NCBI GenBank assembly: GCA_004020875.1
Contig: SAPZ01000008.1
Span: 217,222-281,221, forward strand
DNA from: Mesorhizobium sp.
GTDB taxonomy: Bacteria; Pseudomonadota; Alphaproteobacteria; Rhizobiales; Rhizobiaceae
Reading direction: 5' to 3'
Length of the DNA: 64,000 bases
Shown: piece after piece, positions 4,119 through 64,000 of the stretch
Position numbering within the stretch: position 1 is the stretch's first letter
How the letters are laid out: each line of letters opens with the position of its first letter
Notes under the pieces: model-generated
What the model was told of the DNA's origin: nothing
The model's database searches: none
Seen by the model: only the letters and a program-made list of their open reading frames with translations
Translations under genes and position numbers: made by a program

Positions 4119-6029
4119 ATGGACACCGGCCTGACCACGATCTCGGAAGCTGCAATCGAAAAGCACCGCGCGACCGCGCAGAGCTTCATCACCCGCATCG
4201 TGGTGCTGGAGGACCCGTCGCGCGAATCGGGCACGGCGCTCGCCGGCACCAACCGCCGCTTCGTCTCGACCGTTTCGGTCGGCTCGGTACGCCGCACGCG
4301 CGAGGTCGAGCTCTCGAAGACCGTTGCCGCGATCCATCCCGACGACCAGTTGATGACGATCCCGCAGCACACACTGCTCTACCGCGCGCGACGTGGCCTG
4401 GCGATCGCGCTCGCCATAGCGGGTGTTTTCGCCGAAGGATCCGATCTCGAAAGCCTGCAGGCGAAAAACGCGCGCGCGCCACTGGAAGGCGACGAAGCGG
4501 CCACCTTCAAGCAGCTTCTGTCGGCGTCGGCTTACGTCTCCGCTTTCAGCTTTGCCTCCTATTTGTTCCAGTTGATCGACAGCGACGGCCAGGCGCCGAA
4601 CGACATCGCCGAGCCCGACTTCCTGTTCGACACGACGCAGGACGCGGTGAAGTCGATCGTCGCCGGGCTCGACAAGGCGATCGCCGGTTCGAAAGATGAC
4701 GCCGACCTGACGACGCGGGCACGCGCCTTTGCCCGTGTCGCCATCGACGGGCTGCTGGCGCGCAAAGGCCGATTCGCCGGCATCGGCCCGTTCGAGAACG
4801 CGCATATCCGCATCGACGTCGACGATTTTACCCTCGACGGTTTCGACGTCGCGCCCGGCAAGCGCTCCAAGCCGCTGGTCATGACCTTCAAGAAGCCGGA
4901 AGAGGTCGTCGGCAACCACATCGCCAAATTTCAGTCGGTCAGGCTGGCCAAGATGCTCATGGCCTACGACTTCGAGCGCGAGCTGAATCCCTTCGTCGAG
5001 CTTGGCGGCTTCCTGTTCACCTTCATCGGCGACGGCGCGCCAGGCACCGGCAAGACGACGCTGATCCAGATGATCGCCGGCCTCGTCAACGGCTACTGCC
5101 AGGTCGCCGGCTATCCCTTCGCCTACGAGAATTTCGGCGTCGACCAGATCTCGTCCTACCAAGGCAAGTCAGGTCAGAACTGCCGCCAGTTCATCAACAA
5201 CGTGCTCAATCCACGCGTCATCGGCTTCGGCACCATTGACGACATCGACCAGGTGGCGGCGCGCCGCTCCGACGACCGCGCTTCCGCCGGTCAGCAGGAG
5301 ATCACCGGCGTGCTGATGGACGCCTTCGCCGGCGCCTCGACGGTGGTGCGCGGCAATTGCTCCTTCGGCATGTTCTCCAACTATCCCGAAAATGTCGACG
5401 ACGCGCTGCGCCAGCGAGCCGGCGCGCGCTGGCTGGTCGACGGCCCGCAGACCCGCGACGACTATATCGACATCTTCGTGCTGCTCGCCGGCAAGAATCA
5501 CAAGATCCCGCTGGGCGCGCATGAGCTCTATGCCGCGCAGGAAATCCAGCGTGCCGTGGCCGAAGCCTATGAGGAGCATGAGAAGCCGCAGGAAGACGGG
5601 CTGATGAAGGTCTATGAGCGCTACATGAAGGAGAATGGCGCGCCCAAGACCATGGCCGATATCGGCACCTATCTGCACATGATCAAGGACGCCGAGCCGC
5701 GCTTCACCGGCCGCGCCATCAAGAACGTCACCGACGCGATCAAGATGCGCGCCATGGATATCGAGCTGCCGGACGACTGGTTCGAGAAGCCGGAAGCCTT
5801 CATGCACAAGAGCTACGACGACAAGAAGGCGATGATTGAGGAACTGCGCGGACCATTTTCGATGGACATGGTCATGCAGGAGATCAACCGCTACGCCGAT
5901 TCCGAATTCCGCTACTCCGACAAGTCCGACGACGCGGCGGTGGAGAAGCTGTTGCGTGACGCACGCCTGCGCGAGCGCGCGGCGCGCAAGATGGAGGAGT
6001 TGAAGAAGAAGGAGGCGTGGAATGCCTAG
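4119..6029 (+). CDS. AAA-family ATPase, core of uncharacterised cluster
   Basis: A 636-residue protein with a long N-terminal region (1-290) of unknown fold, then an AAA-type ATPase domain: Walker A GAPGTGKT at about residues 306-313, and a Walker B-like hydrophobic strand ending IDDID near 370-377. The C terminus is charged and helical (RAARKMEELKKKEA). No signal peptide or membrane helix is seen. AAA ATPases remodel or disassemble protein complexes using ATP. The stop overlaps the start of the next gene by 8 bases, so translation is coupled. Together with the coiled-coil, unknown and DUF2333 neighbours it probably forms one machine; the substrate is unknown. Confidence 0.85.
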   Translation: MDTGLTTISEAAIEKHRATAQSFITRIVVLEDPSRESGTALAGTNRRFVSTVSVGSVRRTREVELSKTVAAIHPDDQLMTIPQHTLLYRARRGLAIALAIAGVFAEGSDLESLQAKNARAPLEGDEAATFKQLLSASAYVSAFSFASYLFQLIDSDGQAPNDIAEPDFLFDTTQDAVKSIVAGLDKAIAGSKDDADLTTRARAFARVAIDGLLARKGRFAGIGPFENAHIRIDVDDFTLDGFDVAPGKRSKPLVMTFKKPEEVVGNHIAKFQSVRLAKMLMAYDFERELNPFVELGGFLFTFIGDGAPGTGKTTLIQMIAGLVNGYCQVAGYPFAYENFGVDQISSYQGKSGQNCRQFINNVLNPRVIGFGTIDDIDQVAARRSDDRASAGQQEITGVLMDAFAGASTVVRGNCSFGMFSNYPENVDDALRQRAGARWLVDGPQTRDDYIDIFVLLAGKNHKIPLGAHELYAAQEIQRAVAEAYEEHEKPQEDGLMKVYERYMKENGAPKTMADIGTYLHMIKDAEPRFTGRAIKNVTDAIKMRAMDIELPDDWFEKPEAFMHKSYDDKKAMIEELRGPFSMDMVMQEINRYADSEFRYSDKSDDAAVEKLLRDARLRERAARKMEELKKKEAWNA

Positions 6030-7359
6030 CGCCCCGCCGATAGTGGCAGGCTCACCGGCCGCCGCCAAAAAGCCTGACCTCCTGCGCGACAACGAGCTGA
6101 TCTACGGCAGGCTGCTCGCCGTCGACGAGCCGCATCTCATCGAGCGCTACAACAAGGCTCTTGCCGCGTTCGGCCTCGAGCCGACCAAGCTTAAGAGCTT
6201 CCAGATCGACCGCACCGGCTTCTCGCCCGAGATCGCCGAGGAGTGCGGCGACTACGACTATCTCGACCCCAACGAGGTCAACCGCCGCTTCATCATCCTG
6301 ACGCCGTCGCAGATCGACCTGCCGGTGGTCCACACCGCCTTCTCCAATACCTCGCAGCTGATGTTCGAGTTCATGTCGAAGAACCAGCGCGCCATCGACG
6401 CGCTGACCATCAAGGACGTCATCTACGGGGAGATCGAGGACTCCGTTCCCAAGGTCAACGACATCGAGGACCTGCTGTCGATCAACCAGGTCGAGTTCAA
6501 GGTGCTGTCGGCCGAAGACGTGCTGGGCAAGGCGGCCGAGCTTGGCAAGCTGGTCGACCGGCTGAAGCAGGAGCCCGATGCCTGGCGCGACAACGACATG
6601 CTGCAGCGCATGGTCGATCTAGCCAAGGTCTGCGGCGACATCCGCGAGAACGCCCTGGTGCCGGACCAGGTGATCTTCCGCCACAATGCCTACTGGACCA
6701 GCCATTTCGGCGGTCTCTATGTCTTCGTCGACCCCGATATGACGACGGTGATCTGCGACCCGGCTGCTCCCGGCTTCCGCCGCTCGCGCCCCTGGCAGGT
6801 GAGTTACCTGTCGATAAACGACGCCGACAAGGTGTTCCGCTTCCTCGCCGCCACCGGCCGTCTCGACCTGCCGCGCGCTTCCTGGATCGAGGCTTCCGGC
6901 TATCTCGAGCACCGCGCCGAGATGGTCGTGCGCGCGCTCATCCGAGACGCCGAACCCAGCCGCAACCTCACCGACGTCGACAAGGTCTGGCTGCAGACCT
7001 GGATTCAGCGCAATGCCGACCTGATCGCCAGCGACGGCAACTTTCCCTTCCTCAATGGCGCCAAGCGCGAGATCGCCCAGTTCGGCCATCTAAAGATCGA
7101 GGATGTGTCGCCGCGCCAGCGTTTTTTGGTCGTGCGCGCCAAGCCTGAACACCCCGACGCCTGGCTGACCAACCAGTTGATCTCGGACTTCGTGCCTCAG
7201 GACTTCGTATCGCGTTACGTCTTCAACAAGCCGGGCTTCTACAAGGACTATGACGGCTTCAGCGACGCCTGGCGAAGCCATGTTGTGGACGTTCTGAAAA
7301 CCACATATTTGAAGGACAAGGTGGCGTTTCGCGCGCGCCTTTACGGTTTGACTGACTAG
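6022..7359 (+). CDS. Unknown protein, fourth gene of AAA cluster (possibly DUF6638)
   Basis: A 445-residue soluble protein. The start ATG at 6022 lies inside the end of the AAA ATPase gene and is preceded by GGAGG, giving translational coupling. The N-terminal part contains NELIYGRLLAVDEPHLIERY, which resembles what I remember of the DUF6638 family found beside AAA ATPases in alphaproteobacteria; that assignment is from memory and unverified. No catalytic motif, signal peptide or membrane segment is apparent. Coupling to the ATPase argues for stoichiometric production and a direct physical partnership. Confidence 0.78.
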   Translation: MPSAPPIVAGSPAAAKKPDLLRDNELIYGRLLAVDEPHLIERYNKALAAFGLEPTKLKSFQIDRTGFSPEIAEECGDYDYLDPNEVNRRFIILTPSQIDLPVVHTAFSNTSQLMFEFMSKNQRAIDALTIKDVIYGEIEDSVPKVNDIEDLLSINQVEFKVLSAEDVLGKAAELGKLVDRLKQEPDAWRDNDMLQRMVDLAKVCGDIRENALVPDQVIFRHNAYWTSHFGGLYVFVDPDMTTVICDPAAPGFRRSRPWQVSYLSINDADKVFRFLAATGRLDLPRASWIEASGYLEHRAEMVVRALIRDAEPSRNLTDVDKVWLQTWIQRNADLIASDGNFPFLNGAKREIAQFGHLKIEDVSPRQRFLVVRAKPEHPDAWLTNQLISDFVPQDFVSRYVFNKPGFYKDYDGFSDAWRSHVVDVLKTTYLKDKVAFRARLYGLTD

Positions 7360-52583: not shown

Positions 52584-52735
52584 TCGTTCAAACTCTAGAA
52601 TTTCATGGCCGAGACATAGCGACGTGCCCCGCCGAACTCAACCCCGGGACATGCCCTGAGTGCCTGTCCGGCAAAGCTTTTCTAGGACGAGATAGTGCGG
52701 GCCAGATTATGCCCACATGTCGACCTCATCCAAGC

Positions 52736-52765
52736 TTGACAGGCTCACCCTCGCAACCTTATATC
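52736..52765 (+). promoter_or_regulatory. Promoter of tRNA-Met
   Basis: TTGACA (52736-52741), 18 bases, then TATATC (52760-52765), about 70 bases upstream of the tRNA. Confidence 0.65.
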
Positions 52766-52835
52766 CGCGCGACCTTGGCGAACGCCTCGCGACGCCCGTC
52801 CGTCCAGGACGGTATTCCGGGCCATTTGCCACCCT

Positions 52836-52912
52836 GGCGGGGTAGCTCAGTTGGTTAGAGCACGGGAATCATAATCCTGGGGTCGGGGGTTCAAGTCCCT
52901 CTCCCGCTACCA
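52836..52912 (+). tRNA. tRNA-Met (anticodon CAT)
   Basis: A 77-base cloverleaf ending in encoded CCA. Acceptor GGCGGGG pairs with TCCCGCT (two terminal G-U pairs), D stem GCTC/GAGC, anticodon stem CGGGA/TCCTG with loop ATCATAA, and T stem GGGGG/CCCTC with loop TTCAAGT. It looks like an elongator Met tRNA of alphaproteobacteria. A serine recombinase gene on the opposite strand runs into its 3' half, so it is the integration site of an island. The G-U pair at position 7-66 may reflect a changed 3' end. Confidence 0.93.
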
Positions 52913-54551
52913 CTTCAAACCCACTATCGTACGTAGTGGTTGCGTTGCGGTGACCGCCTGATGCGGCCTGCATTGCGGCATAGCGCGCGGTGGGAAATGC
53001 TGCCCCTCCGATAAGGGCGGCAAGCTTGCCCTTGACCTCGATCTCGAAACCCTCTCGGGCAGGCTTGGGATGCACTGTGACACTGTGAACGAGCCCCCGA
53101 AAATATTTGATGAGCGGGCCACGGTCCTCGGCGGCAGTTGCGTGGTCGGCCAACACCTTTGAAAGAGCATCGACGGTTTCTGTGTAACGCTGCAGCGTCG
53201 CTGGGTGGAGAGCCACGGTCGAGGGCGGCTCATCGACGGCTTCGAGCTGTGCCTCAATTCGAAAGAGCTGTGATTTGAGTTGAGCAATGCGTTCTTTCGC
53301 ATCCTCTTCGGCAATAACATTCCTGATCACCAGGTCGATCGTGCGCTGCCGTTCACCTTCGACGCAATCGCGCTTGCTCTCCAAGCTTGTGCGCATTGCG
53401 TTGGCCTGCGCCACCAATCCCCTGCGCTCTTCATTGTATTTGCGGGCATAAGCTTCGATAAGTTCCGGCGCGTTTAATTGTTCGCGCATGCCATCGAGGA
53501 CCGCCTTCTCGATGCTTGGCAGGTAGAGCAAGCGCCGGTTGGAACAGCTCCCACTTTCACGGACCGCCGAGCACCGGATACGCGTTTTGCCGGTCTTATC
53601 ACGATCATGAACCGACAGGCCCGATCCGCAGATGCCACAGCGAAGTAATCCGGACAATAGGTGCGTGGGTCGGGCCTTGATATGAGAAAATTGCTTCGCC
53701 CTCGTGGCCTTCAGCGCCTGCGTCTTCTGCCACGTTTCGTCATCGATGATCCGCAAGTGCGGCACTTCTTTCGCCTGCCACTGGTCCTTGGGATTTGGCC
53801 GAGAGACGCGCTTGCCGGTATCAGGGTTCTTTACCATCCGGACCTTGTTCCAGACGATGCGTCCAACATAGAGTTCGTTGAGAAGTAGCCCCACCCCGCG
53901 TTGAGTATTACCGTTGATAGTGGACCCATTCCAACGTGTTCCCCGGGGTGGCGCTACGCCTTCTCGGTTGAGATCGCCAGCCAAGTCACGCGGGGCTCGA
54001 CCTGCCGCATAAGCGGAAAAAACGCGCCGAACAACTTCTGCCTCCTCTTCGACAATCTCTAGTTCGCCAGGGCGGCCCAAGATTGCTCGATAGCCATAGG
54101 CGCGGCCTCCGGCGTGACGTCCATCCCGGACTACTCCAGCCATACCCCTACGCACCTTTTTGGCCCCGTCTTCCCTCTGCATCTGACCAACAAGTCCACG
54201 AATACCGATGAGGACTGCATCGGCAATACCGTCATGGACAGCCTGGATTTCGATACCCAGAAAAGCGAGCCGTTTGTGAAGGCCTGCAAGGTCCGCCATA
54301 TCTCGGGACAGTCGATCGAGCGCTTCAACAACTAACGTATCAAACCGATCTTGGCCTGCCGCCTCCATCAGGGCCAGCAGCCCATCGCGACCGAACATCG
54401 ACGCTCCGGATCGCGCCCTATCCTCATAGACGGCAACAACCTCAAGGCCATTGCGAACCGCGTAGGCACGGCACAAGGCAATCTGGTCTTCGGTGGACTT
54501 TTCGTTCTGCAACTCGGTCGAGAAGCGAGCGTAGATAGCTGCCCGGGTCAT
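52869..54551 (-). CDS. Large serine recombinase (site-specific integrase)
   Basis: A 560-residue large serine recombinase. The resolvase domain begins RAAIYARFSTELQNEKST, with nucleophile Ser11. A recombinase domain follows (about 160-290, GRAYGYRAILGRPGELEIVEEEAEVVRR), then a zinc-ribbon (GLLRCGICGSGLSVHD ... CSAVRESGSC, about 325-365) and a coiled-coil region (about 390-450). The last 13 codons (VAGEGLEPPTPGL) are templated by the tRNA-Met gene on the other strand. It therefore marks the left end of an integrated island. An ATGA overlap couples it to the small gene upstream. Confidence 0.93.
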   Translation of the reverse strand: MTRAAIYARFSTELQNEKSTEDQIALCRAYAVRNGLEVVAVYEDRARSGASMFGRDGLLALMEAAGQDRFDTLVVEALDRLSRDMADLAGLHKRLAFLGIEIQAVHDGIADAVLIGIRGLVGQMQREDGAKKVRRGMAGVVRDGRHAGGRAYGYRAILGRPGELEIVEEEAEVVRRVFSAYAAGRAPRDLAGDLNREGVAPPRGTRWNGSTINGNTQRGVGLLLNELYVGRIVWNKVRMVKNPDTGKRVSRPNPKDQWQAKEVPHLRIIDDETWQKTQALKATRAKQFSHIKARPTHLLSGLLRCGICGSGLSVHDRDKTGKTRIRCSAVRESGSCSNRRLLYLPSIEKAVLDGMREQLNAPELIEAYARKYNEERRGLVAQANAMRTSLESKRDCVEGERQRTIDLVIRNVIAEEDAKERIAQLKSQLFRIEAQLEAVDEPPSTVALHPATLQRYTETVDALSKVLADHATAAEDRGPLIKYFRGLVHSVTVHPKPAREGFEIEVKGKLAALIGGAAFPTARYAAMQAASGGHRNATTTYDSGFEVVAGEGLEPPTPGL

Positions 54552-54856
54552 GTCTCGTGAGCCTTCTTGACGTGATCTGATTCAGCCTTGAAATTTTGGT
54601 CGATCGAAACCCCGTCGGCGAGGAGATGATCGCGCCTAGCATCCGCGATGGCAAGCGCCTCTACGAACTTAAGCATGACGACACGAAGCTCCTCGGGCGC
54701 CAACGCTGAGACGTTTTCGCTGGGAGGTGTGCCATTCCAGGCGTCTTGTGCCGGCTTCACGAAGCCGAGCATCAGCAGCATATCGTTTACGGCGCGGGCC
54801 CGAGAGGATGAGTTGGCCTCGATTTGCCGACCAGCTTCTTTCCGCTTTGCCTTCAT
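54548..54856 (-). CDS. Small hypothetical protein coupled to recombinase
   Basis: A 102-residue, mostly helical, charged protein (ARAVNDMLLMLGFVKPAQDAW, ELRVVMLKFVEALAIADARRDHLL). It ends in an ATGA overlap with the recombinase start. Tight coupling suggests an accessory to integration or excision, such as a directionality factor, but there is no visible helix-turn-helix and I do not recognise a family. Confidence 0.65.
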   Translation of the reverse strand: MKAKRKEAGRQIEANSSSRARAVNDMLLMLGFVKPAQDAWNGTPPSENVSALAPEELRVVMLKFVEALAIADARRDHLLADGVSIDQNFKAESDHVKKAHET

Positions 54857-55056
54857 GGCACTTGCCCGGTTGCGGACGCCCGTTTGCGACCTCTAGGCAA
54901 GGTTCGTAGAAATCTCGGCAATCTCGCATTGCCGTTGTGTACGCTTCCGTCTCCCTTCTCTGCTCCAGACGGCCCGGCTGACTCAATGAAAGTCGGCTTT
55001 TCAGCTCATTGGCGCACGACGCCACCGGCCAATGAGGCCCTGGGCCCGGTGGGGTA

Positions 55057-55359
55057 TCACGGCGCCCCGCCCCTGGCTGGTTCGCCAACCAAGTCGAGCA
55101 CGGCTCGCCAGAACCGTAAATCCCCTTCCCGGTGCGCATTGCGAGCCGAAAGCACGCACCATTCGATTGCCTGAGCGGCATCGGTGCCGAACAGGTCGAG
55201 CGCTGCCGTGGCAATCGCTTCCGGGGTACTGTGGGCCCAAAGCCCGCCGGCTTCTCTCCAAACCGAGGATGCAGCAAGCGTTCCAGAGCTTTTGTCGACA
55301 CTCGCTTCTGCTCCGTGCACCGCCAGCAGCGGACGCGACCCAATCGCAGGGCTTCTCAT
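55057..55359 (-). CDS. Small island protein coupled to Tat-signal gene
   Basis: A 100-residue protein with start at 55359 overlapping the stop of the preceding gene in an ATGA arrangement. The C-terminal half is alanine-rich and helical (EAIATAALDLFGTDAAQAIEW, EGDLRFWRAVLDLV), resembling what I remember of the small DUF6961 proteins of accessory regions. The first 30 residues are less convincing. Function unknown. Confidence 0.55.
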   Translation of the reverse strand: MRSPAIGSRPLLAVHGAEASVDKSSGTLAASSVWREAGGLWAHSTPEAIATAALDLFGTDAAQAIEWCVLSARNAHREGDLRFWRAVLDLVGEPARGGAP

Positions 55360-56117
55360 GTCACCCGATCTCCGCACTGATACATCATCACAGACATGCA
55401 GACGTCCTCTCGGCGCTTTCGCGGGTAAGGCGCCCTTTGCCCGCTGCCGGGCATCAAGGCCCCGGCGGGTTGCCGTGGCTGGCCTATGCGATCCAGATCG
55501 GCGAGCGCGGCACGTAGCTGTGGCCAGGGAAACTCCGTGCAATCTTCCGCGCTTTCGCCTTCGCGCAGGACCGCATCGAGCTTGCCTGCCACGCCGGCGA
55601 GCGTCGTGGCAGGCGTCGCCATGAGGACCTCCACCAACTCTTGCTCTCGCTCGGCGGCAGCAAGTTCCTCCCGCTTGGCGGCTGAATAGCCGATGCGCCT
55701 GTCCTCATCATCCCAGCGCGCCTGAGAGACGGCCAGATCGGCCTCGGCCCTGCCGCGCAGGTCGGCGAAACCAGGATCATCCCCGAACAGGTCCTCCAAA
55801 TCGCCTGGCCAGGAGACTGTGACACTGACATCTTCATCGGGTAGAATGACCTCGGCTTTCGGGAAGCCATTGGCCTCGACCAATAGCTTCTCGAGTTCCT
55901 GTTGCCTGCGGCAGAGCGCGGCTGTGCGCAGATAGGCGGATCGCCACTCGTGCCACAGCGCGAGTGCTGGATCGAAGGCAGCGCCGCGGGTGTGCGCTCC
56001 TGCGGCTGCCGACGAGCCAGTTTGAAATGGCAGCATTGCTGTGATCGCCGCCCCACCTGTCAGCAACATCCTGCGAGTGACGGAAGGACAGACTCGTGTA
56101 TTGTCGGAATCACCCAT
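55356..56117 (-). CDS. Hypothetical protein with twin-arginine-like signal
   Basis: A 253-residue protein with TRRMLLTGGAAITAMLPF at about residues 14-31, resembling a Tat signal (RR, then a hydrophobic run), though the spacing and following sequence are not classic. The body is helical and acidic (RRQQELEKLLVEANGFPKAEV, ADLAVSQARWDDEDRRIGYSAAKREEL). I recognise no family. It is coupled by a 4-base overlap to the small gene downstream. Confidence 0.6.
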   Translation of the reverse strand: MGDSDNTRVCPSVTRRMLLTGGAAITAMLPFQTGSSAAAGAHTRGAAFDPALALWHEWRSAYLRTAALCRRQQELEKLLVEANGFPKAEVILPDEDVSVTVSWPGDLEDLFGDDPGFADLRGRAEADLAVSQARWDDEDRRIGYSAAKREELAAAEREQELVEVLMATPATTLAGVAGKLDAVLREGESAEDCTEFPWPQLRAALADLDRIGQPRQPAGALMPGSGQRAPYPRKRREDVCMSVMMYQCGDRVT

Positions 56118-56216
56118 GATCCGAGCTCCCTATAGCTTGGGTTATGGTCAGGCTGGGCGACGTGAGCCAACACGTCGTCCGGCCGTCTTGCAGGTTGGCA
56201 GACTACAGGTCGGAAT

Positions 56217-56498
56217 GTGAATGGGCAAGAAGAATCATCACCAGGTGATGAAATTAACGCCATCCAGTGTAAGATGGCACGGGTAGCTCTTGGATGGGGG
56301 GTGCGAGAACTGGCCGAAGCAGCGCAGGTCGCTACGCAAACGATCACGCGTCTCGAAAAAGGCGACCGGCTCAAAGCAAAAACAATTGGAGCGATCCGCG
56401 CGGCATTTGAGGCCGCTGGCATCGAGTTCATTCCGCAAAACGGCGGCGGTCCAGGCGTTCGGCTCTCGCGACCGGAAGGCGGCCCCCGAGCGACCTGA
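56217..56498 (+). CDS. XRE-type helix-turn-helix regulator
   Basis: A 93-residue repressor-like protein: CKMARVALGWGVRELAEAAQVATQTITRLEKGDRLKAKTIGAIRAAFEAAGIEFIPQNGGGPGVRL is the single-domain XRE pattern common in rhizobial mobile elements. The GTG at 56217 is assumed; an in-frame ATG at 56274 would begin at the HTH. It lies between the Tat-signal gene (divergent) and the defence operon (convergent). Confidence 0.82.
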   Translation: MNGQEESSPGDEINAIQCKMARVALGWGVRELAEAAQVATQTITRLEKGDRLKAKTIGAIRAAFEAAGIEFIPQNGGGPGVRLSRPEGGPRAT

Positions 56499-56594
56499 CC
56501 CACCCCACCTTGATCCCGCCGTTTCGGTATTGCGAGGGCAGCCGCGCAGCCGGCGTGCTGACGGGTTAGCGGGATATTGAAACAACAAGACTAC

Positions 56595-57113
56595 TCAGAC
56601 GATTTTCGGGAACAGGAAATCGATCCAATCAGCGCAAGCCGCCACAACATCCAGCGCCATACCTGGTGTGTGAACATCAGCGTTGCCATGCGAGAGGCCG
56701 TTGCGCAAAACGATCAGCGCCTCGACAGGATCTGCTATGGGTATGCTGCCAGAAACGATGGGCGGTAGCGCGCCCGCCTTGCGTGCCTGATCGAACAGAT
56801 TGCGAAGCGTGCCACGTGTGGCTCCGCCATGGCCATTCAAGCGAAATTTGAGTGCCAGCTCGAAAGCTCCAAACGCCTGAATTTCCCCTACGACAAAGAG
56901 ATCATAGTCGAAAAAGGCGTAGATCATCACACTTCGCGCCCGGTCGAACGCCTTTTGAACCTCTGTTGGTGGCGTTCCCTTCAAGCCAACATCGACAATA
57001 CCGGTGTGATGGTCTCGAAACGCCATTCGGCGCGCGACACCTCCGTCAACTACGCAGAGGTCGTCGAACCGGGGGTCTGGGGCCAGAGCAACCTCAAAAG
57101 GCTTTAGAGACAT
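56595..57113 (-). CDS. HEPN-like protein, third gene of SIR2-HerA operon
   Basis: A 172-residue, mostly helical protein. Near the C terminus is LRNGLSHGNADV, with Arg137 and His142 in the R-N-x3-H pattern that forms the catalytic site of HEPN ribonucleases, in a long helix as expected. The middle has helices of the four-helix bundle (EIQAFGAFELALKFRL, RNLFDQARKAG). It starts 16 bases after the HerA stop on the same strand. HEPN domains act as toxins or RNA-cleaving effectors in defence systems. The assignment rests on this motif and context; no second HEPN domain is present. Confidence 0.65.
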   Translation of the reverse strand: MSLKPFEVALAPDPRFDDLCVVDGGVARRMAFRDHHTGIVDVGLKGTPPTEVQKAFDRARSVMIYAFFDYDLFVVGEIQAFGAFELALKFRLNGHGGATRGTLRNLFDQARKAGALPPIVSGSIPIADPVEALIVLRNGLSHGNADVHTPGMALDVVAACADWIDFLFPKIV

Positions 57114-57129
57114 CGGGCGCTTGGCTCCT

Positions 57130-59124
57130 CTATGCTCCCCAGGCGTCGATGACCGCGCTTAGAGGAAATGGGGTCTTCTCCTTCGACCATTCGTGGTACG
57201 GCGCTGCTGTCTGGCTGTATGGGCCGGGCTCCGGTCGATCGAATTGGACTCGCGTCGGAATATGGAACGCGCTTCCAAAAACTATCGCTTCCCCTGACGA
57301 CAATATGGTCACTTGGTCGAGCAAGCGCCGCGCCTGCATCGGGATGATGCGGCGGAAATGGTCGATGTCGTCCGGATTTTGCAGACGGTGGCTGATGAAA
57401 TTGGCGCACTGACTGATAATGGTCTGGCTTATCTCACTCGGACGCTGGCTGGCAATGATGAGGGACAAACCGAACTTGCGACCTTCCTTTGCAATGCGCT
57501 CATAAGTCAGCCGAGCCAGACGGTGACCGCGATCCTCGTCGGCCCGGGCCGGACGGGCATAATTGTGCGCCTCTTCCAGGACTAGCACCCATGGGTGCTT
57601 GTACCGTGACGCGGCAGGCAAGCGTTCCCGTGCCTCCAAGAGGACGCGCCCAATGACGGCACAGGCATAGGGAAGCACTTCGTTACTCAACATCGAAAGG
57701 TCGAGCACAGATACCTTCGGACCGGTGGCAGCGCCTAAGCCGAAGCGGGCGAACCAGGCCGACAGATTGGCGATTGCGGTGTCGGCGTCTTCATAGTTGA
57801 GAAATGCACGCCACCGCTTGTCGTCGAGGCGGGTCTTCAAACGTAGCTTCAACGTCGTGAGATGGGCGTCCACCCTGAACGTGTCTTCCTTCGATACGGC
57901 ACGATTGATCAGAGACGGATCGGTCAGCGTCGAGCGCGCAATCGGGATCGGTGAATCAGCGGTGCGCGCACCAGCCTCCACTATATCGCTCGCGCCGACA
58001 ATCTTGGCCCGAATAGCGTCCTTGAGTTTCTCGGCTTCGGCTGCGATTGCAGCCTGATTGTTCATCACCTCAGTGTTGTAGTCGTTAGCGGAACGGTGCG
58101 TGGTGAACAGGGCATCGAAAGCCGAGGTGTCGATGTCAGTGTCAGCGAGATGGCCGGTAATGGCGTCACAGTAGGAGCCTGCCGCCTTCTTTTTGATTTT
58201 TGTCAACTCGATGAGAAGTTGGTCGAGCGCACTCATCGCGTTCTGGAGCGAACCGAGGCTTACGGCAGCCGTGGCGTTGCCGCCCTTCGCGATTGCCCAC
58301 CAGTCCTTAAGCACGGGTTCCTGAGTCTGTTCAGCAGCGCTTAGCCATGCGCAGATCTCTTCAGCGTTTAAGAACCAGAGCGGGAGGCTGAACTCCTTGC
58401 CATTGAGATAGATGCGATCCGGTAGGCGTGCCTCTGCCACGGCGGCAGGAAAGGCTTTGGCGTACTCACCATTGATGTCGAGAATGAAGACGTGCGGATC
58501 TTCGGCAGCACCATCGAGTGCCTTCATGGCCTTCTGGATGAGGCTCGATACTGAGAAGGATTTGCCTGAGCCGGTGTTGCCGACGATCGCCAAGGGCCTG
58601 GAGAACAAATCATTGTAGGACGCCCGCACGACATTGCGCGCCTGGCCGGTCGGAAAACCGATTTTCAAGTCGTAGTCAAAATCCTTGGCATCATAGCCTT
58701 CGGGCTTGTTGCGACGGGGTGGGATTTCAAACACCGCACGCAGGATGTCGGGCGATCCGATTTCTGCCGGTGTATCCAGCGTCGGCAGAACAGATATGCC
58801 TGGACTGAATGAGGGCTCATCATCCGCGTGTTCGATAGTGCCCAACAACTGCACACTGGCAATCCGGCGTGGTTTCATTAGCTCAAGGCTGAGATCATCG
58901 CCGCTGAACGGGTCGAAACTCTCACGCGCCTCGAGGTCGGTAATGATGCCAATGACTGTTTCGCCCCCGCCCAGCGAGAAGGTGAGAAAAGCGTTGATGG
59001 CGATCGCAGCCTGTACGCCATCGAGGGTCGCCCGTAGGGCCGATCTGGTCTCGGGCAGCAATTCCACCCTTACCCGGAAGCCCTGAACTGAAACGATGTG
59101 GCCGATGAGACGGGGATTATCCAT
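57130..59124 (-). CDS. HerA-like DUF87 ATPase of SIR2-HerA defence system
   Basis: A 664-residue HerA/FtsK-type hexameric ATPase. The N-terminal HAS-barrel (about 1-130, IGHIVSVQGFRVRVELLPET) precedes the ATPase: Walker A VGNTGSGKSFSVSSL near residue 184, Walker B VLVLEEAHNYARP near 516, and the sensor-like IIASQRPSEISQTIISQC. It starts one base after the SIR2 stop. In known SIR2-HerA systems the ATPase ring assembles with SIR2 and the complex depletes NAD on phage infection. This gene has lower GC than the core, consistent with transfer. Confidence 0.9.
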   Translation of the reverse strand: MDNPRLIGHIVSVQGFRVRVELLPETRSALRATLDGVQAAIAINAFLTFSLGGGETVIGIITDLEARESFDPFSGDDLSLELMKPRRIASVQLLGTIEHADDEPSFSPGISVLPTLDTPAEIGSPDILRAVFEIPPRRNKPEGYDAKDFDYDLKIGFPTGQARNVVRASYNDLFSRPLAIVGNTGSGKSFSVSSLIQKAMKALDGAAEDPHVFILDINGEYAKAFPAAVAEARLPDRIYLNGKEFSLPLWFLNAEEICAWLSAAEQTQEPVLKDWWAIAKGGNATAAVSLGSLQNAMSALDQLLIELTKIKKKAAGSYCDAITGHLADTDIDTSAFDALFTTHRSANDYNTEVMNNQAAIAAEAEKLKDAIRAKIVGASDIVEAGARTADSPIPIARSTLTDPSLINRAVSKEDTFRVDAHLTTLKLRLKTRLDDKRWRAFLNYEDADTAIANLSAWFARFGLGAATGPKVSVLDLSMLSNEVLPYACAVIGRVLLEARERLPAASRYKHPWVLVLEEAHNYARPARADEDRGHRLARLTYERIAKEGRKFGLSLIIASQRPSEISQTIISQCANFISHRLQNPDDIDHFRRIIPMQARRLLDQVTILSSGEAIVFGSAFHIPTRVQFDRPEPGPYSQTAAPYHEWSKEKTPFPLSAVIDAWGA

Positions 59125-59125
59125 C

Positions 59126-60511
59126 CTAAACCACCGGGTCAGGTTCGACCGGCGTGGACGATGCGATCTGTTTTTCGAAACGCCGTAACCGCAGGAAGTC
59201 GTCCAGCCATTGCACGTCGGGCATTACCGAGCGGGCGAAGTCGTCAAAGGTCGCGTGTTTGAACTTGGCAGCAGCAAAGGCGGTATCGGTGGGACATAAC
59301 ACAAAAGCGCGTTTGCCGAGGTCCTTGTAGCGGCGCACCCGCTCGATGACGGGGCTCGCTGGATTGGGCTCAACCACGAGCATCACCAGTGACGGGTTCA
59401 TGAGCGCATTTTCAATGATGCGGCTGACATGATCGTCACCGAAGCCGTAGCCCAGCACCAGCAAGAAGGTCTGCGGGATTCCGAGACGTACCTGAAACGA
59501 CCGGAAGAGATGTGCATATGGCATCGTGAGTGTCTGCGCGAACTTGTTGGCAGTTGGCAGAATGCCGACCGAGGGCGTGCCTCCGGCGAGTCTGACGAGC
59601 GCAGCCGCCTTCTCGTTCGGCTTCAAGCCAGCGTAGGTTCGGAAGGGCACTAGGTCGGGATGTCGGGCACGCATTTCGCCGTCCTGCTCGAACCAGTGGA
59701 TGGATCCGTGCAGCTTGTAGAAATGCAGGAACTTGTCGAAGCGCCGCACGCGGCCTTCGGCTACCTCGCCCGGATAATAGATGTCGAGGCCGTAAACCGA
59801 TGGATCGAAACGCGCAGCCGCCCGGCCGGTGAAACCATCGAAATACTGGATACCGAGCAATTCCAAAGCCTGCTCGAAGAGCGTGTCATAATTCAGCGTG
59901 AAGAGGTGGGTTCGCCCCAGATTGCTATCGCGTGCGACGAGCTTGGAGAGAAATGCAAGCTGCGGCGCGATCTCGCTAGCCGACTTTGGTTTTGTAGTGT
60001 CTGGCAAGGACAGTGCGCATTCTGCGAAGATCGAAATGCGCAGACGGTCAACGAACCACTTGAGATCGTCGAGGCTTGGCGTCGGCGTACCGGGCCAGGT
60101 CACGCCCGAGAATGGTGTATCTTTCGACTGCCCAACGACCAAGGCATTCGAGACGAAGGACAGCCAAGCCTCGAACCCCAAGGTCGGAGCACCGAGTAGA
60201 TCGGCCATATCGACGGCATCCTTACGGGCCTTGATAATCGGACCTATCGATGCCGGTACATCAGATAGAGCTTTGATCGTTTCAAACACGGCAGTTTCGA
60301 GGTTCGCCATTGTCTTGCCGCCCGCCGAAACCGAAGTGCCGGAACCTGTCAGAACAACGAGGTTTTCCATGCGCAGCCATTCCGAGATCAGCGCCTGGAG
60401 ACGAATGCGCCCCTGCTTCTGGTCAAGCCCGAGCAGGAGATCACCCGCATTGCCATCCTCAGTCAGACCTATGAGCTGGTACTCGACAGGTGTGGGCGCC
60501 GCCGTGGTCAT
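59126..60511 (-). CDS. SIR2-domain NADase of SIR2-HerA defence system
   Basis: A 461-residue SIR2-family protein. The NAD-binding VLTGSGTS (residues 53-60) is near the N terminus, TLNYDTLFE (about 204) and FYKLHGSIHWF (about 269, catalytic His) follow, and a later LLVLGYGFGDDHV completes the Rossmann-like domain. It is larger than deacetylase sirtuins and of the SIR2_2 type used as NAD hydrolases in anti-phage systems. The start at 60511 has a GGGGGG site; the longer frame to 60565 is less likely. It heads a minus-strand operon with HerA and the HEPN-like gene. Confidence 0.9.
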   Translation of the reverse strand: MTTAAPTPVEYQLIGLTEDGNAGDLLLGLDQKQGRIRLQALISEWLRMENLVVLTGSGTSVSAGGKTMANLETAVFETIKALSDVPASIGPIIKARKDAVDMADLLGAPTLGFEAWLSFVSNALVVGQSKDTPFSGVTWPGTPTPSLDDLKWFVDRLRISIFAECALSLPDTTKPKSASEIAPQLAFLSKLVARDSNLGRTHLFTLNYDTLFEQALELLGIQYFDGFTGRAAARFDPSVYGLDIYYPGEVAEGRVRRFDKFLHFYKLHGSIHWFEQDGEMRARHPDLVPFRTYAGLKPNEKAAALVRLAGGTPSVGILPTANKFAQTLTMPYAHLFRSFQVRLGIPQTFLLVLGYGFGDDHVSRIIENALMNPSLVMLVVEPNPASPVIERVRRYKDLGKRAFVLCPTDTAFAAAKFKHATFDDFARSVMPDVQWLDDFLRLRRFEKQIASSTPVEPDPVV

Positions 60512-60795
60512 TGTTCTGTCCCCCCAAATCACTGCGCAACGGATTGATGATCTTGAGCCCGGCAAAATCTCTTTCGTTATCCGTAACTACCGCGCACTCG
60601 TTCGCCTCTGCAACGGCCGCGATGATCATGTCGAGCCCGCGACGACGCCGACCGGCAGCCTTCCCCTCTGCCATAAGACGAGCCCAGGCCAAGCCGGCTT
60701 TATCGTCGAAGGACAGGAATGCGACCGGAAAACAGCACGCGTGGTCCTTCTGGCCCCGCGACCAGGCGTCGAGGGCGTCACGCTTCCTGCGATGA
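60459..60795 (-). pseudogene. vapC-type PIN toxin, 3' portion with two frameshifts
   Basis: The minus strand encodes AGLAWARLMAEGKAAGRRRR, then GLDMIIAAVAEANECAVVTD and NERDFAGLKIINPLR, the C-terminal half of a VapC-like PIN-domain ribonuclease. Just upstream, RRKRDALDAW and LFSGRI are in different frames: a base is missing after the Trp codon and one is extra before the LSFDD segment. The two shifts compensate each other. The stop lies inside the SIR2 gene (53-base overlap). No start region is in place; the N-terminal fragment is on the opposite strand (60844). Confidence 0.7.
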
Positions 60796-60843
60796 GTTTT
60801 TAACGTCGTCAAGCCGAAGCCGTTGGAGTCACTCTCGGCTCGG

Positions 60844-60915
60844 ATGTGGGAGCAGCGCGACGAGGATCTGTTTATTGCTTCGCTGACAATCGCCGAAACT
60901 AGGCGCAGTATTCTG
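60844..60915 (+). pseudogene. Opposite-strand N-terminal fragment of vapC-type toxin
   Basis: The plus strand reads MWEQRDEDLFIASLTIAETR then RSIL, which is the internal N-terminal segment typical of PIN/VapC toxins that would precede the DALDAW segment of the pseudogene at 60459-60795. The two pieces point toward opposite directions, so an inversion or a second copy is implied. Confidence 0.5.
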
Positions 60916-62161
60916 GACTTCACAGCGCCAGCTTTCGTACCGCAGTTCCCGCACCTAAGGTCGCCGGACAACCACCTCTCGTTCCAGTTGGGTGTACCTC
61001 GGCTGCGGCCGGTCCAACGGCGGGCTCTGCTGCTTGCGGCTCGACCGCAATGTTTCCCTGCGTTCCAACGGCGCGACGTGGTGTTGCTGAGCTTCGACCT
61101 GAATTCGTTGTCTGGCGTCCTTGCCTCCGGCAAAATCGAGCAAAATCAGAGACTTGCCGACGCCTGCCTCGTGGCGCCGCTGGCAGCCTCCTGGAAAAAT
61201 GATGTGCAGACAAAGACTTAAGCGCCTCATGGAGGCGGTACCTTTATCTTGCCCTACGCGCCTTACACCTGTCGACTAACAACAACTCATGAATCAGATT
61301 GAGCGTGATCGTGATACATCGCCATAAAGATGGCATCATACAGCCCAGCGTACATATGCCAAGCTTGCGGCCGGATTGTCGCCTCCACCGGGCACTCCGA
61401 GTTTAGTGCCCCGACCGACTTCATGGGTCGGCGCGGCCGGTTCGCGCTGTTCGTATGGCCGACAAAACAGGCCGGTCCAGACGCTCGATCCAGGCGTATT
61501 GCGACAGAGATTCGACGCATCCAAACCGGGAAAAACTCCGTTCAGCGGCCTCATTGGGAGCTTCTTTCACGCGCGCCAGGTGGCATTGAACACCTCATTT
61601 TCGATGGCTCTGTTTGATCTCGGACGCTCGATGGCAGCCCCCTCTTCGGACTGAGCGATACGAGATTTTCCGCAGCTGAAATTGCTCGTGGAGCACTATC
61701 CCGAACGAGAATGGCCCTCGCCCATCGGAGAACTTTCGGCGGGTTCTCGCGTCGGAATTCGACCTTGAACGCGGTCATGTCGGCGACAAAGGCCTGCTGC
61801 CCTCGACTGCTCCATGGTTATCTGCCGCGTGAGGTAACGGCGGTCGGCGCCTTAGTTCGCATGCTGGCGCTTTGGCACCCCGGCCTGCATGAATGCGTGC
61901 CTGTGAAACGCCAAAGTCTCAGCTTGCTCGGTTAGAACCGTCAAAATCGGCTCAGCTCCAGAGCTTGGGAGACGACAACCGGCGGCCCGCCGGTCGGGGC
62001 AAAGATAAGCGTGGCGCGAGCGACACCAAGCCCAATATTTCGGACGGCCATTCGCCTGAAAGCGGCGCGGGTTATCGATGATATCTGGCCTCTTGTGGCG
62101 ACTTGAAGGACTTCGAAAGAGCCCCGCGCCGGTGGCGCGGAGGCTTCGGGAGCTGGGGCCG
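60916..62161. other. Decayed non-coding stretch
   Basis: About 1.25 kb without an intact gene. Short open frames on both strands have odd, Arg/Pro/Ser-rich compositions. The only family-like remnant I see is the possible PdxA-like fragment at 61287. This is typical of island flanks with eroded insertion debris. Confidence 0.6.
61287..61355 (-). pseudogene. Possible PdxA-like fragment
   Basis: The minus-strand peptide ending MYAGLYDAIFMAMYHDHAQ resembles the PdxA-family motif AMYHDQ (metal-binding His and Asp of 4-hydroxythreonine-4-phosphate dehydrogenases). Only about 20 residues are left before a stop. Weak. Confidence 0.25.
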
Positions 62162-62485
62162 TCAGTCGGCCGGGTTCCAGATGATGGCGTAGGTGTCGTC
62201 GTCGTCCTTGCCGGCGGCGCGGCCGAGATTGGCGTAGAGTTTTCTCGGGCCGAACTCCGGGGCTGCGATCGACAGGCTCACATAGTCCTTGCCGGAAGCC
62301 TCGCCGGTCCTGATCCAGCCGGCGCCGACCTCAACGCCCTGCGTCAGCACCCGGAAGTCGGGATGGGTGTCGGCGCTCTTGGCCTGATTGGGCACGATGG
62401 CGATGTCGGCGCGGACGCTGAGCGTCTTGAGCTGGCCCTTGTAGCCGCCGTTCTCCTGCTTGGTGACGTATCCGATCGCGGTCAT
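62162..62485 (-). CDS. DUF736 family protein
   Basis: A 107-residue protein, intact, starting at 62485 behind AAGGAGAC. MTAIGYVTKQENGGYKGQLK, then DFRVLTQGVEVGAGWIRTGE and YVSLSIAAPEFGPRKLYANLG are the DUF736 pattern. Members are abundant on rhizobial plasmids and integrative conjugative elements, next to conjugation and replication genes, and their function is unknown. Its presence supports a mobile-element origin for this end of the region. Confidence 0.9.
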   Translation of the reverse strand: MTAIGYVTKQENGGYKGQLKTLSVRADIAIVPNQAKSADTHPDFRVLTQGVEVGAGWIRTGEASGKDYVSLSIAAPEFGPRKLYANLGRAAGKDDDDTYAIIWNPAD

Positions 62486-63000
62486 TTCAAAGTCTCCTTT
62501 GCTTGTCGCCCGGGGACCATTCCCCTGCGATGGCGGACCGTGATGGGCGCGTCCGGCCCGCGCGAACCCAACGGGCCGCAGCGGCAGCGGAGGACCCGAG
62601 CGGGCAGCTTTTTTGCAGCGAAGCGGGCGCGAGGAGCCGCCGCAGGCGGCGGGGAAAAAAGCTGCTGGCCGAGGGTTTCGGGCGGGCCGGATCCGCCCAT
62701 AGGAACGGTCCTGGGCGCCAGGCATTGGAGACAGCCAGGCGCGGTCGCCCCAGCCAGGCAGAGGTCAAGGCGGCGATGGGACAAGAGGCTTTGGCGCCGT
62801 TCCGACGTTGCCATAGCGCCCAGGCAGCAAGCGCCAGGTTGCCATCACCGGGCCGGGTGTTTTCGGGGAGACGATCGGCAGTGTGCTCGGCTGAGAAGAC
62901 CGGCGCGGTCCTGTCGGCAAGGCTTTGCCGGGCACGCGATGCAGCCCAGCAGACGGACGAGCGGCGACGTTCAATACCTCGCCGCCGCCCATGCCAAAGA
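62486..63000. other. GC-rich stretch upstream of DUF736 gene, no intact gene
   Basis: Several overlapping open frames on both strands arise from the high GC and look non-coding. It holds the large inverted repeat at 62604-62665 and a short GGGGA/TCCCC hairpin near 62515. Confidence 0.5.
62604..62665. repeat. Large inverted repeat upstream of DUF736
   Basis: GCAGCTTTTTT (62604-62614) and AAAAAAGCTGC (62655-62665) are exact reverse complements, with inner GCCGCC and GGCGGC. It reads as a terminator-like structure on either strand. I recall related sequence near DUF736 genes in rhizobial mobile elements. Confidence 0.6.
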
Positions 63001-63141
63001 TCATTCGGCCACGAACAGCGACTGCACCTTCGACCATTGATCGGCGGTGCGGAAGCCGCCGCGTTCGGTCTAGCTCGACACCCGGAACGCCATCCAGCGG
63101 GGGAGCCAGCCATCGAGTTGTTCGCGGCCGTTCTCGCCTGA
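63001..63141 (-). pseudogene. C-terminal fragment of an unrecognised gene with in-frame stop
   Basis: The minus strand reads VDFLSGENGREQLDGWLPRW then MAFRVSS, stop (63070), then TERGGFRTADQWSKVQSLFV and AE, stop. The protein-like composition across the stop suggests the tail of a gene interrupted by a nonsense change, cut on its upstream side by the DUF2000 fragment. The family is not recognised. Confidence 0.4.
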
Positions 63142-63438
63142 CAGGAAGTCGACCTTGTCGACGGTTCGGGCGTCGCCCATCCTGGATTGATTCCAATCGG
63201 CATAGCGGTGCTTGCCGCGCCAGCCTCGGAGCTTGGCGCGTTGCGCGCCAAGGCGCTGGCGCGGGACATCGACGTCGTGGATTTTCCGGTCCAGGGACAA
63301 GAGACAACCGACTATGCCGCCTTCGGCGAGGTGGTGGGCACAATCGAGACGGATGCGCTTCGCTATGTTGGCATAGGGGTATTCGGTCCGCGCAGAGCGG
63401 TTGGTAAGGTGGTCGGCAGGTATGGGCTGTTAAAATAA
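63142..63438 (+). pseudogene. Truncated DUF2000 family gene
   Basis: The plus-strand frame reads QEVDLVDGSGVAHPGLIPIG then IAVLAAPASELGALRAKALA and ends YVGIGVFGPRRAVGKVVGRY plus GLLK. This is the C-terminal two thirds of a DUF2000 protein. The N-terminal part is missing: an in-frame TGA sits just upstream at 63139 and the preceding sequence is unrelated. The truncation point may mark the right-hand boundary of the inserted region. Confidence 0.7.
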
Positions 63439-63611
63439 GTGCCTGCGCTATCGACAACGTTAGAGCCGAGCGTCCAAAGGTGTCGAGCCTAACTTGGACG
63501 TCATCGAGCGACACAGTATCGCAGCGCGGTTCGATCATGTTTTTCGCGCAGTCGACAATGGCGAGCACTTGTTAGCACCGATCAGTGGCTAGAGCCATGG
63601 GCAATGCTCCC
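63439..63611. other. Gap before pyruvate carboxylase, nothing recognised
   Basis: About 170 bases between the DUF2000 fragment and the end of pyc. No intact frame or clear signal is seen. Confidence 0.4.
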
Positions 63612-64000
63612 CTAACTTACATTGTCGGATTTACTTTCCTGGTACTTCAATACGGCCAACAGATCTTTCGCATCGATCTGGTCGCCGGCCTTGACCAGCA
63701 CCTCGGCGATCTCGCCGTCGCGTTCGGCATGCAGCGCGGTTTCCATTTTCATCGCCTCGATCGACAAGAGCACGTCGCCTGCCTTGACCGCCTGTCCAGG
63801 CGCCACGGCAAGCGTCGACACCACGCCCGGCATCGGCGCGCCGACATGGCCCTCATTGCCGGGCTCGGCCTTGCGGCGCACCTTGGCGGCGGAAGCGCCA
63901 TGCGCCCGGTCCGGCACCTTGACGCGGCGCGGCTGGCCGTTGAGCTCGAAGAAGACCGTGACCATGCCCTTGTCGTCGACATCGCCGAACGCCTGGCAGC
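63612..64000 (-). CDS. pyc: Pyruvate carboxylase, C-terminal end (cut by window edge)
   Basis: The frame runs off the right edge and ends with TAG at 63612. The visible 128 or so residues include the family segment GMVTVFFELNGQPRRVKVPD, a linker, and the biotinyl domain VGAPMPGVVSTLAVAPGQAV ... LLSIEAMKMETAL, where the Lys of AMKM is biotinylated. Pyruvate carboxylase makes oxaloacetate from pyruvate and bicarbonate for anaplerosis. The short tail YQESKSDNVS is unusual beyond the usual DAKDLLAVL end. Confidence 0.92.
   Translation of the reverse strand, partial: CQAFGDVDDKGMVTVFFELNGQPRRVKVPDRAHGASAAKVRRKAEPGNEGHVGAPMPGVVSTLAVAPGQAVKAGDVLLSIEAMKMETALHAERDGEIAEVLVKAGDQIDAKDLLAVLKYQESKSDNVS

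Follow-up and report, generated by a model that had tools for sequence, protein, structure and literature searches.

The SIR2 and HerA proteins of the anti-phage pair described as SIR2-HerA, Nezha or Gao19 form a 12+6 complex in which SIR2 depletes nicotinamide adenine dinucleotide (NAD+) (PMC12198126, PMC11559045). A phage is known whose NAD+-rebuilding enzymes are directed against the system, and a Vibrio island has been described in which a SIR2-HerA pair occurs alongside separate toxin-antitoxin systems (PMC11559045). For a different type of defence locus, BREX, endoribonucleases of the HEPN superfamily have been proposed as standalone backup effectors (PMC12839542). Here we analyse a 64,000-nucleotide stretch of Mesorhizobium sp. 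DNA (contig SAPZ01000008.1, positions 217,222 to 281,221; hereafter the window, meaning the whole stretch), in which SIR2 and HerA genes are followed by a third, short gene whose product is very probably a HEPN protein. Among the matches listed for open PMC papers, and within the text that these offered, we recognised no SIR2-HerA that is accompanied by a HEPN protein or has a toxin-antitoxin pair of its own, in agreement with an earlier note on this DNA that knew of no such HEPN-partnered version.

All three genes lie on the minus strand. The first intact gene of the operon encodes a SIR2 family predicted NADase of 461 residues, counted from its ATG (59126-60511); a HerA-like ATPase of 664 residues begins 1 base after it (57130-59124), and the third gene, for a predicted HEPN ribonuclease (RNase) of 172 residues, follows HerA by 16 bases (56595-57113). 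The open reading frames confirm the arrangement and spacing given in the earlier note, and because the gaps are just 1 and 16 bases, the three genes appear to be spaced tightly enough to share one mRNA. The Shine-Dalgarno-like sequences GGGGGGA and GAGGAG precede SIR2 and the third gene, respectively. The proposed identity of the first two genes is borne out by several comparisons: SIR2 and HerA match the PADLOC families PDLC04085 (892 bits) and PDLC04106 (1292 bits) over almost their full length, the Pfam families SIR2_2 (PF13289, E 1.4e-10) and DUF87 (E 1.8e-19), and the PDB chains 8j4u_A (E 1.2e-27) and 8ziq_M (E 4.4e-45), and HerA directly follows SIR2 on the same strand. The active-site motifs T-L-N207-Y-D and L-H268-G-S are present in SIR2, its catalytic residues align to those of the 8j4u SIR2, and HerA carries a Walker A motif (GNTGSGKS, 182-189) and LVLEEAHN at 514-521. 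Since the scores, 144.7 and 217.2 bits, fall far below the NCBIfam equivalog cut-offs of 500 and 850 bits set for the characterised type, we regard the pair, judged by sequence, as a divergent subtype of the characterised anti-phage system.

The third protein carries the R-N-x3-H motif to which the earlier note had drawn attention (R137-N138-x3-H142), as well as E85-x3-K89. We aligned 14 relatives, down to 29% identity, from whole genomes, plasmids and HerA loci (L, G and H numbers being our handles for individual sequences, the alignment omits the weak G167, the contig-end G282, the plasmid hit H6, which is 44% covered, the copies L038/L039 and the weak L109-L111). R60, Y70, D71, L72, Q79, E85, R91, R137, N138, H142 and G143 are invariant in all 14, and E85-x3-K/R89 is likewise kept throughout. 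Both sequence marks of HEPN proteins given by Anantharaman et al. 2013 (PMC3710099), Rx4-6H with a polar residue after the arginine and E-x3-[KR], are therefore found across the family. The R-N-x3-H motif alone is weak evidence, since shuffling the protein 20000 times produced a loose form of it 2367 times. Profile comparison with hhalign gave a score of 32.9 over 113 columns against a set of 12 DUF4145 proteins, which we take to be a HEPN-type family (probability 46%), and 25.0 over 30 columns against a PF18735 (RiboL-PSP-HEPN) set comprising 13 of 15 loci, L075 and L086 having been dropped (probability only 7%). None of 150 column shuffles reached either score (maxima 22.7 for DUF4145 and 19.6 for PF18735), the highest score among 11 decoy segments from VapB, VapC, HigB, HigA, HerA and SIR2 was 17.9, and three Abi_2 proteins taken as a set reached 19.9. 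PF18735 itself was matched by two relatives below its cut-off (E 9e-4 and 0.07).

Structure prediction points in the same direction. A model of the core (residues 46-172, from four sequences) reached medium confidence, with a predicted local distance difference (pLDDT) of 66.9 and a predicted template modelling score (pTM) of 0.61, and its top 17 PDB matches in Foldseek are all HEPN proteins (probability up to 0.99, query TM 0.43-0.56), PDB 1wty being counted as such on our own assumption. The HEPN labels follow mostly from the titles of the entries; 1wwp is named in PMC3710099. In the core model R137 lies near a helix end and H142 just past it, E85 is part of the second helix, which is long, and PMC3710099 places the HEPN motif residues likewise relative to the helices. 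The model of the whole protein, also from four sequences, was poor (pLDDT 47.6; the first 12 Foldseek rows are HEPN toxins at E 0.19 or worse) and was set aside, so that the fold reading relies on the core model; sequence searches of the PDB with the third protein and with the family profile returned nothing credible. We consider it very probable that the third protein is a HEPN protein, and probable that it has RNase activity and belongs to a separate HEPN family with an invariant Y70-D71-L72. As an observation apart, the family profile also finds a distant second group (L109 1360-1980 and L110 1381-1926, minus strand), of which the single third-protein query reaches L110 weakly, L109 being found by the profile only; the group combines R-R-N-x3-H-G with an E-L-A-A-L-I-A-L-E-L helix and is perhaps another HEPN subfamily.

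The third gene recurs beside SIR2-HerA in other genomes. When the 84,980 species of genome_contigs were scanned with HerA, a search that reaches close relatives only, 44 loci came up, 40 of which extend at least 600 bases past HerA and could be tested. The gene follows HerA in five of these, all among the 27 loci whose HerA is at least 80% identical, namely those of Siculibacillus lacustris and of four Xanthobacter genomes, with three of the encoded third proteins identical to one another, and it is also found after HerA on plasmid pZ25 of Shinella oryzae. There are seven carrier loci in total, spanning the window and three genera besides its own genome, and in each the third gene starts 16-23 bases after the HerA stop (16 in the window, 17-23 in the others). 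A search of the class found HerA in 5 of 385 genomes, the window's own included. At the level of the order, relatives of the third protein occur in 11 of 397 genomes, with HerA beside the relative in two (the window and the Siculibacillus contig G266); one further relative, G282, ends at a contig edge. Relatives also stand without HerA beside AbiE (L012 7974-8498), conjugation genes (L016 5157-5651) and tcmP/DUF5131 pairs (L013 7830-8369 and L021 6848-7369), and because of these neighbours the family appears to be a stand-alone defence-island gene as well. No relative turned up in five scans of viral contigs, for which HerA, the third protein, the alignment of the family and two of its members served as queries, nor in phage records. 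In the loci that lack the third gene, inspection of the open reading frames by eye revealed no recurring replacement gene after HerA, apart from near-copies.

Where it is present, the gene appears to be kept by purifying selection and to travel with SIR2-HerA, because its ratio of nonsynonymous to synonymous change (omega) is low (0.08-0.30 in 9 of 10 pairs) and its silent-site distances are near those of its neighbours: between the window and Shinella they are similar to those of SIR2 and HerA, and between the window and Xanthobacter they are somewhat lower. Two genomes that carry SIR2-HerA without the third gene, those of Rhizobium subbaraonis (L023) and of a Brucella species (L024), cluster with Shinella and the window when the tree is built from HerA (support 97/94), and join Shinella (support 95/91) when SIR2 is added and the middle of HerA removed (a tree from which 7 rows less than 80% covered and 8 of less than 70% identity were dropped). 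About 1.85 kb of downstream DNA is common to Shinella, L023 and L024; this block starts 592 bases past the last HerA codon in Shinella and 70-71 bases past it in L023 and L024. The leader of the third gene after the HerA stop, AGAGGAGCCAACTGCCTCA, is common to L024 and Shinella up to the start codon, and part of it is retained in L023. The simplest reading is that the third gene was lost in L023 and L024; it is also possible that it was inserted into a pre-existing leader in other lineages, and under either reading L023 and L024 retain SIR2-HerA without it. The presence of the gene on the trees takes 4 changes at fewest, 2 of them forced by the starred branches. A single gain followed by losses may still account for the pattern, because the Xanthobacter HerA has a divergent middle.

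This middle segment deserves separate mention. In 30-residue bins, HerA residues ~271-390 (window 57955-58314) are 43-60% identical between the window and Xanthobacter L037, and the bins outside are 73-100% identical; the segment has possibly been swapped or evolves fast, and may be a specificity region. Some SIR2-HerA copies are broken: a frame change has cut HerA in two on the Shinella plasmid (L010 7657-7666), and SIR2 of Xanthobacter L036 is interrupted (5794-6940). An identical 15-base palindrome-like sequence, GGGAAAGCCTTCCCC, also lies near these defence cassettes, on the plus strand at L029 7790, L032 10080, L036-L039 10568, L046 6430, L048 6732, L023 8602 and L024 12122, and on the minus strand at L030 5481, L034 5477 and L053 5475. 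In L029, L032, L036-L039, L046 and L048 it follows the last gene within ~0.1 kb, in L023 and L024 it lies ~2.1 kb after HerA, and in L030, L034 and L053 ~1.1 kb before SIR2, as if it marked a shared boundary or insertion hotspot; no copy lies beside the operon in the window. The shared downstream block may or may not derive from IS66, the DNA past the palindrome being different, for example, in L036 and L037.

The earlier note had overlooked a second recurring feature, an RNase toxin-antitoxin pair upstream of SIR2 in many close relatives. In Xanthobacter L037 (5814-6610) SIR2 is preceded by an antitoxin-like gene and a PIN toxin gene (PF01850, 1.5e-11), the latter overlapping SIR2 by 4 bases. 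No Pfam family matches the antitoxin of this VapBC-like pair above its cut-off, and VapB is a label that we assume from its place and resemblance. Among the 36 genome_contigs loci that include SIR2 and extend 500 bases or more upstream of it, such a pair stands directly before SIR2 in 13 (VapC match covering at least residues 1-143), and a HigB-HigA-like pair takes its place in 3 (L030 and L034, by Pfam scans for Gp49 and HTH_37, and L053, by 98-99% identity). In L029 the VapBC-like pair is displaced 2.1 kb from SIR2, with DUF5131 and TcmP-like genes between, which brings the count from 16 of 36 loci with a pair directly before SIR2 to 17. For loci whose HerA is at least 80% identical, 17 of 23 carry a VapBC- or HigBA-like pair; neither is found in L026, L028, L031, L035, L040 and L043. 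The window itself holds the wreck of such a vapC gene: a minus-strand remnant at 60516-60800, equal to residues 52-146 of the Xanthobacter VapC and ending 4 bases before SIR2, and a second piece of the same gene in inverted orientation (60806-60917, plus strand), recognised by a protein match to residues 11-51 and by a DNA match. Across the four HEPN-bearing groups, vapC is broken in the window and in Shinella, where a stub remains, the pair is displaced in Siculibacillus, and it is in place in Xanthobacter; four groups are too few to claim that HEPN replaces VapC.

An upstream toxin-antitoxin pair as a general feature of SIR2-HerA was considered and rejected: among eight distant plasmid loci with annotated SIR2, which were chosen from a best-hit list and not at random, just two have a pair directly before SIR2. 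In both (Haematobacter and Rhizobium sp. CB3171) this is AbiEi-AbiEii, and an exonuclease or SbcD-like gene directly follows HerA. Five other plasmid loci comprise three without a SIR2 match (L135, L138 and L139), a DUF4297-HerA locus (L137) and one whose SIR2 is unannotated (L136). The VapBC and HigBA queries match none of the 13 distant plasmid loci and none of the four other class loci.

We favour, at roughly even chances, the reading that the locus is a variant of SIR2-HerA to which a HEPN RNase has been added as an accessory, serving as its second or backup effector. By analogy with homologues, the SIR2 subunits of the SIR2-HerA complex would destroy NAD+ during infection. The HEPN protein, made from the same mRNA and probably a dimer, would cut RNA (tRNA, mRNA or phage transcripts) through R137, N138 and H142, its cleavage being set off when the system is triggered, for instance by a phage that restores NAD+. 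In many relatives the VapBC-like pair could autoregulate the operon and supply another RNase; in the window no RNase-like gene of the unit other than that for HEPN is intact. The combination of NAD depletion and RNA cleavage in one system, as the earlier note had envisaged, is plausible. An RNase in the same operon would naturally answer a phage that rebuilds NAD+, and a three-gene unit would make the notion of layered effectors directly testable.

Several observations weigh against this favoured reading. No Pfam, PADLOC, NCBIfam or PHROGs model reaches the third protein of the window at E 1, which would place a probable HEPN family beyond the reach of these collections. The hhalign probabilities are modest, and the DUF4145 and PF18735 sets score just 19.2 against each other, so hhalign joins even accepted HEPN families poorly. 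The four-helix HEPN fold, which the earlier note had wished to see in a predicted structure, stands by the identity of the best matches and falls short in the medium confidence of the core model and in the E values, 0.11 or worse. Conservation beside SIR2-HerA elsewhere holds equally in part: the gene occurs there in three genera besides the window's genome and is absent after HerA in 35 of the 40 testable loci. The four further HerA loci of the class search have no third gene within 1.5 kb on each side, and 8 of the 11 order genomes show no HerA near the relative in the 1.9-14 kb examined. One pair, L036/L037, has an omega of 3.6, on a synonymous distance (dS) of 0.008. Because of its absence from the 35 loci and the four class loci, SIR2-HerA does not need the third gene; and because it is missing from those 35 and its absence from two lineages with SIR2-HerA retained is most simply read as loss, the gene is accessory and not core, its association with SIR2-HerA being real but optional.

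A broader version of the favoured reading, which we regard as tentative and rather doubtful, is that in alphaproteobacteria a modular, composite defence operon is built around SIR2-HerA, with an exchangeable RNase toxin-antitoxin pair in front and an exchangeable nuclease behind. The front position would be taken by VapBC or HigBA, and by AbiEi-AbiEii, which is not an RNase, in the two distant homologues; behind HerA would stand HEPN here, its place being taken in distant homologues by an exonuclease or SbcCD. A single transcription unit would then layer NAD+ depletion and RNA cleavage, the antitoxin would also switch the whole operon, and HEPN would serve as a fail-safe against phages that restore NAD+. 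The recurrence of an RNase toxin-antitoxin pair before SIR2 suggests that toxin-antitoxin autoregulation may control a defence operon.

The strongest rival holds that the third gene is an independent passenger, a stand-alone HEPN abortive-infection gene with its own trigger that happens to be co-transcribed with SIR2-HerA in a defence island. The family members that stand alone beside AbiE, conjugation genes and tcmP/DUF5131 (L012, L016, L013 and L021), as well as the patchy presence of the gene, with at least 2 changes forced on the tree, argue for it; the same place, order and short spacing in three genera and the window, however, and the silent sites, at which the gene and SIR2-HerA have roughly co-diverged between the window, Shinella and Xanthobacter, argue against it, and we hold it to be unlikely. 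Less likely still is a regulatory or sensing subunit of HEPN fold that would tune activation by binding to RNA or to SIR2-HerA, with no RNA cleavage: some HEPN domains do lack the catalytic motif, but R-N-x3-H and E-x3-K/R are complete in all 14 relatives and are tied to RNase function (PMC3710099). The protein is small and also conserves positions beyond the motif, Y70-D71-L72 and R60 among them, which would suit such a role. Very improbable, finally, is a HEPN toxin held inactive by SIR2-HerA or an antitoxin and freed when the complex is disturbed, since, for all that close relatives are coupled to RNase toxin-antitoxin pairs and MNT-HEPN toxins are among the structural matches of the core model, the family also occurs without SIR2-HerA, L023 and L024 keep SIR2-HerA without the HEPN gene, no nucleotidyltransferase gene adjoins the third gene in the window, and H142 is not followed two residues later by the tyrosine that is a feature of HepT.

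The operon sits in a recombinase-bearing island near a tRNA, as had been noted from the sequence: a large serine recombinase (52869-54551, minus strand) lies ~2 kb and a tRNA-Met(CAT) (52836-52912, plus strand), the left edge of the island, ~3.7 kb from the 3' end of the operon. The recombinase gene overlaps the 3' end of the tRNA, and the four same-genus stretches that were fetched all match the window only up to 52912-52915; this match boundary and the overlap are consistent with integration of the island at tRNA-Met. No direct repeat of at least 16 bases involving tRNA-Met was found within 52600-64000, and the contig ends with the window, so that the right edge of the island falls outside the visible sequence. 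Between the recombinase and the operon, a convergent helix-turn-helix (HTH) gene (56217-56498, plus strand; PF01381, HipB-like below cut-off) ends 96 bases from the third gene. On the other side lies a gene with a Pfam match to DUF736 (62162-62725, minus strand). DUF736 is typical of alphaproteobacterial plasmids and conjugative elements, and its presence suggests that the island belongs to some larger element.

Compared with described systems, the locus shares with SIR2-HerA/Nezha/Gao19 (PDB 8j4u, 8ziq and 9c1m) the gene order, the SIR2 Asn/His motifs and the HerA Walker motifs, and differs from it by the extra HEPN gene after HerA and the broken vapC before SIR2. HerA-DUF4297 likewise joins a HerA-type ATPase to an adjoining effector gene, but its effector is a Cap4-like nuclease, whereas that of the window is SIR2 (PMC12198126). 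With HEPN ribonucleases the third protein has in common Rx4H with N after the arginine, the second-helix E-x3-K/R, the motif at a helix end and the fold matches, DUF4145 and RiboL-PSP-HEPN being the nearest of the three Pfam sets compared. MNT-HEPN (HepT) proteins rank among the top structure matches to the core model, yet the third gene has no adjacent MNT gene, its neighbours being HerA and the convergent HTH gene. The HEPN effectors of BREX are alike in that a standalone HEPN endoribonuclease stands beside another defence core and unlike in the core system itself, and the word SIR2 is absent from the main text of that paper (PMC12839542).

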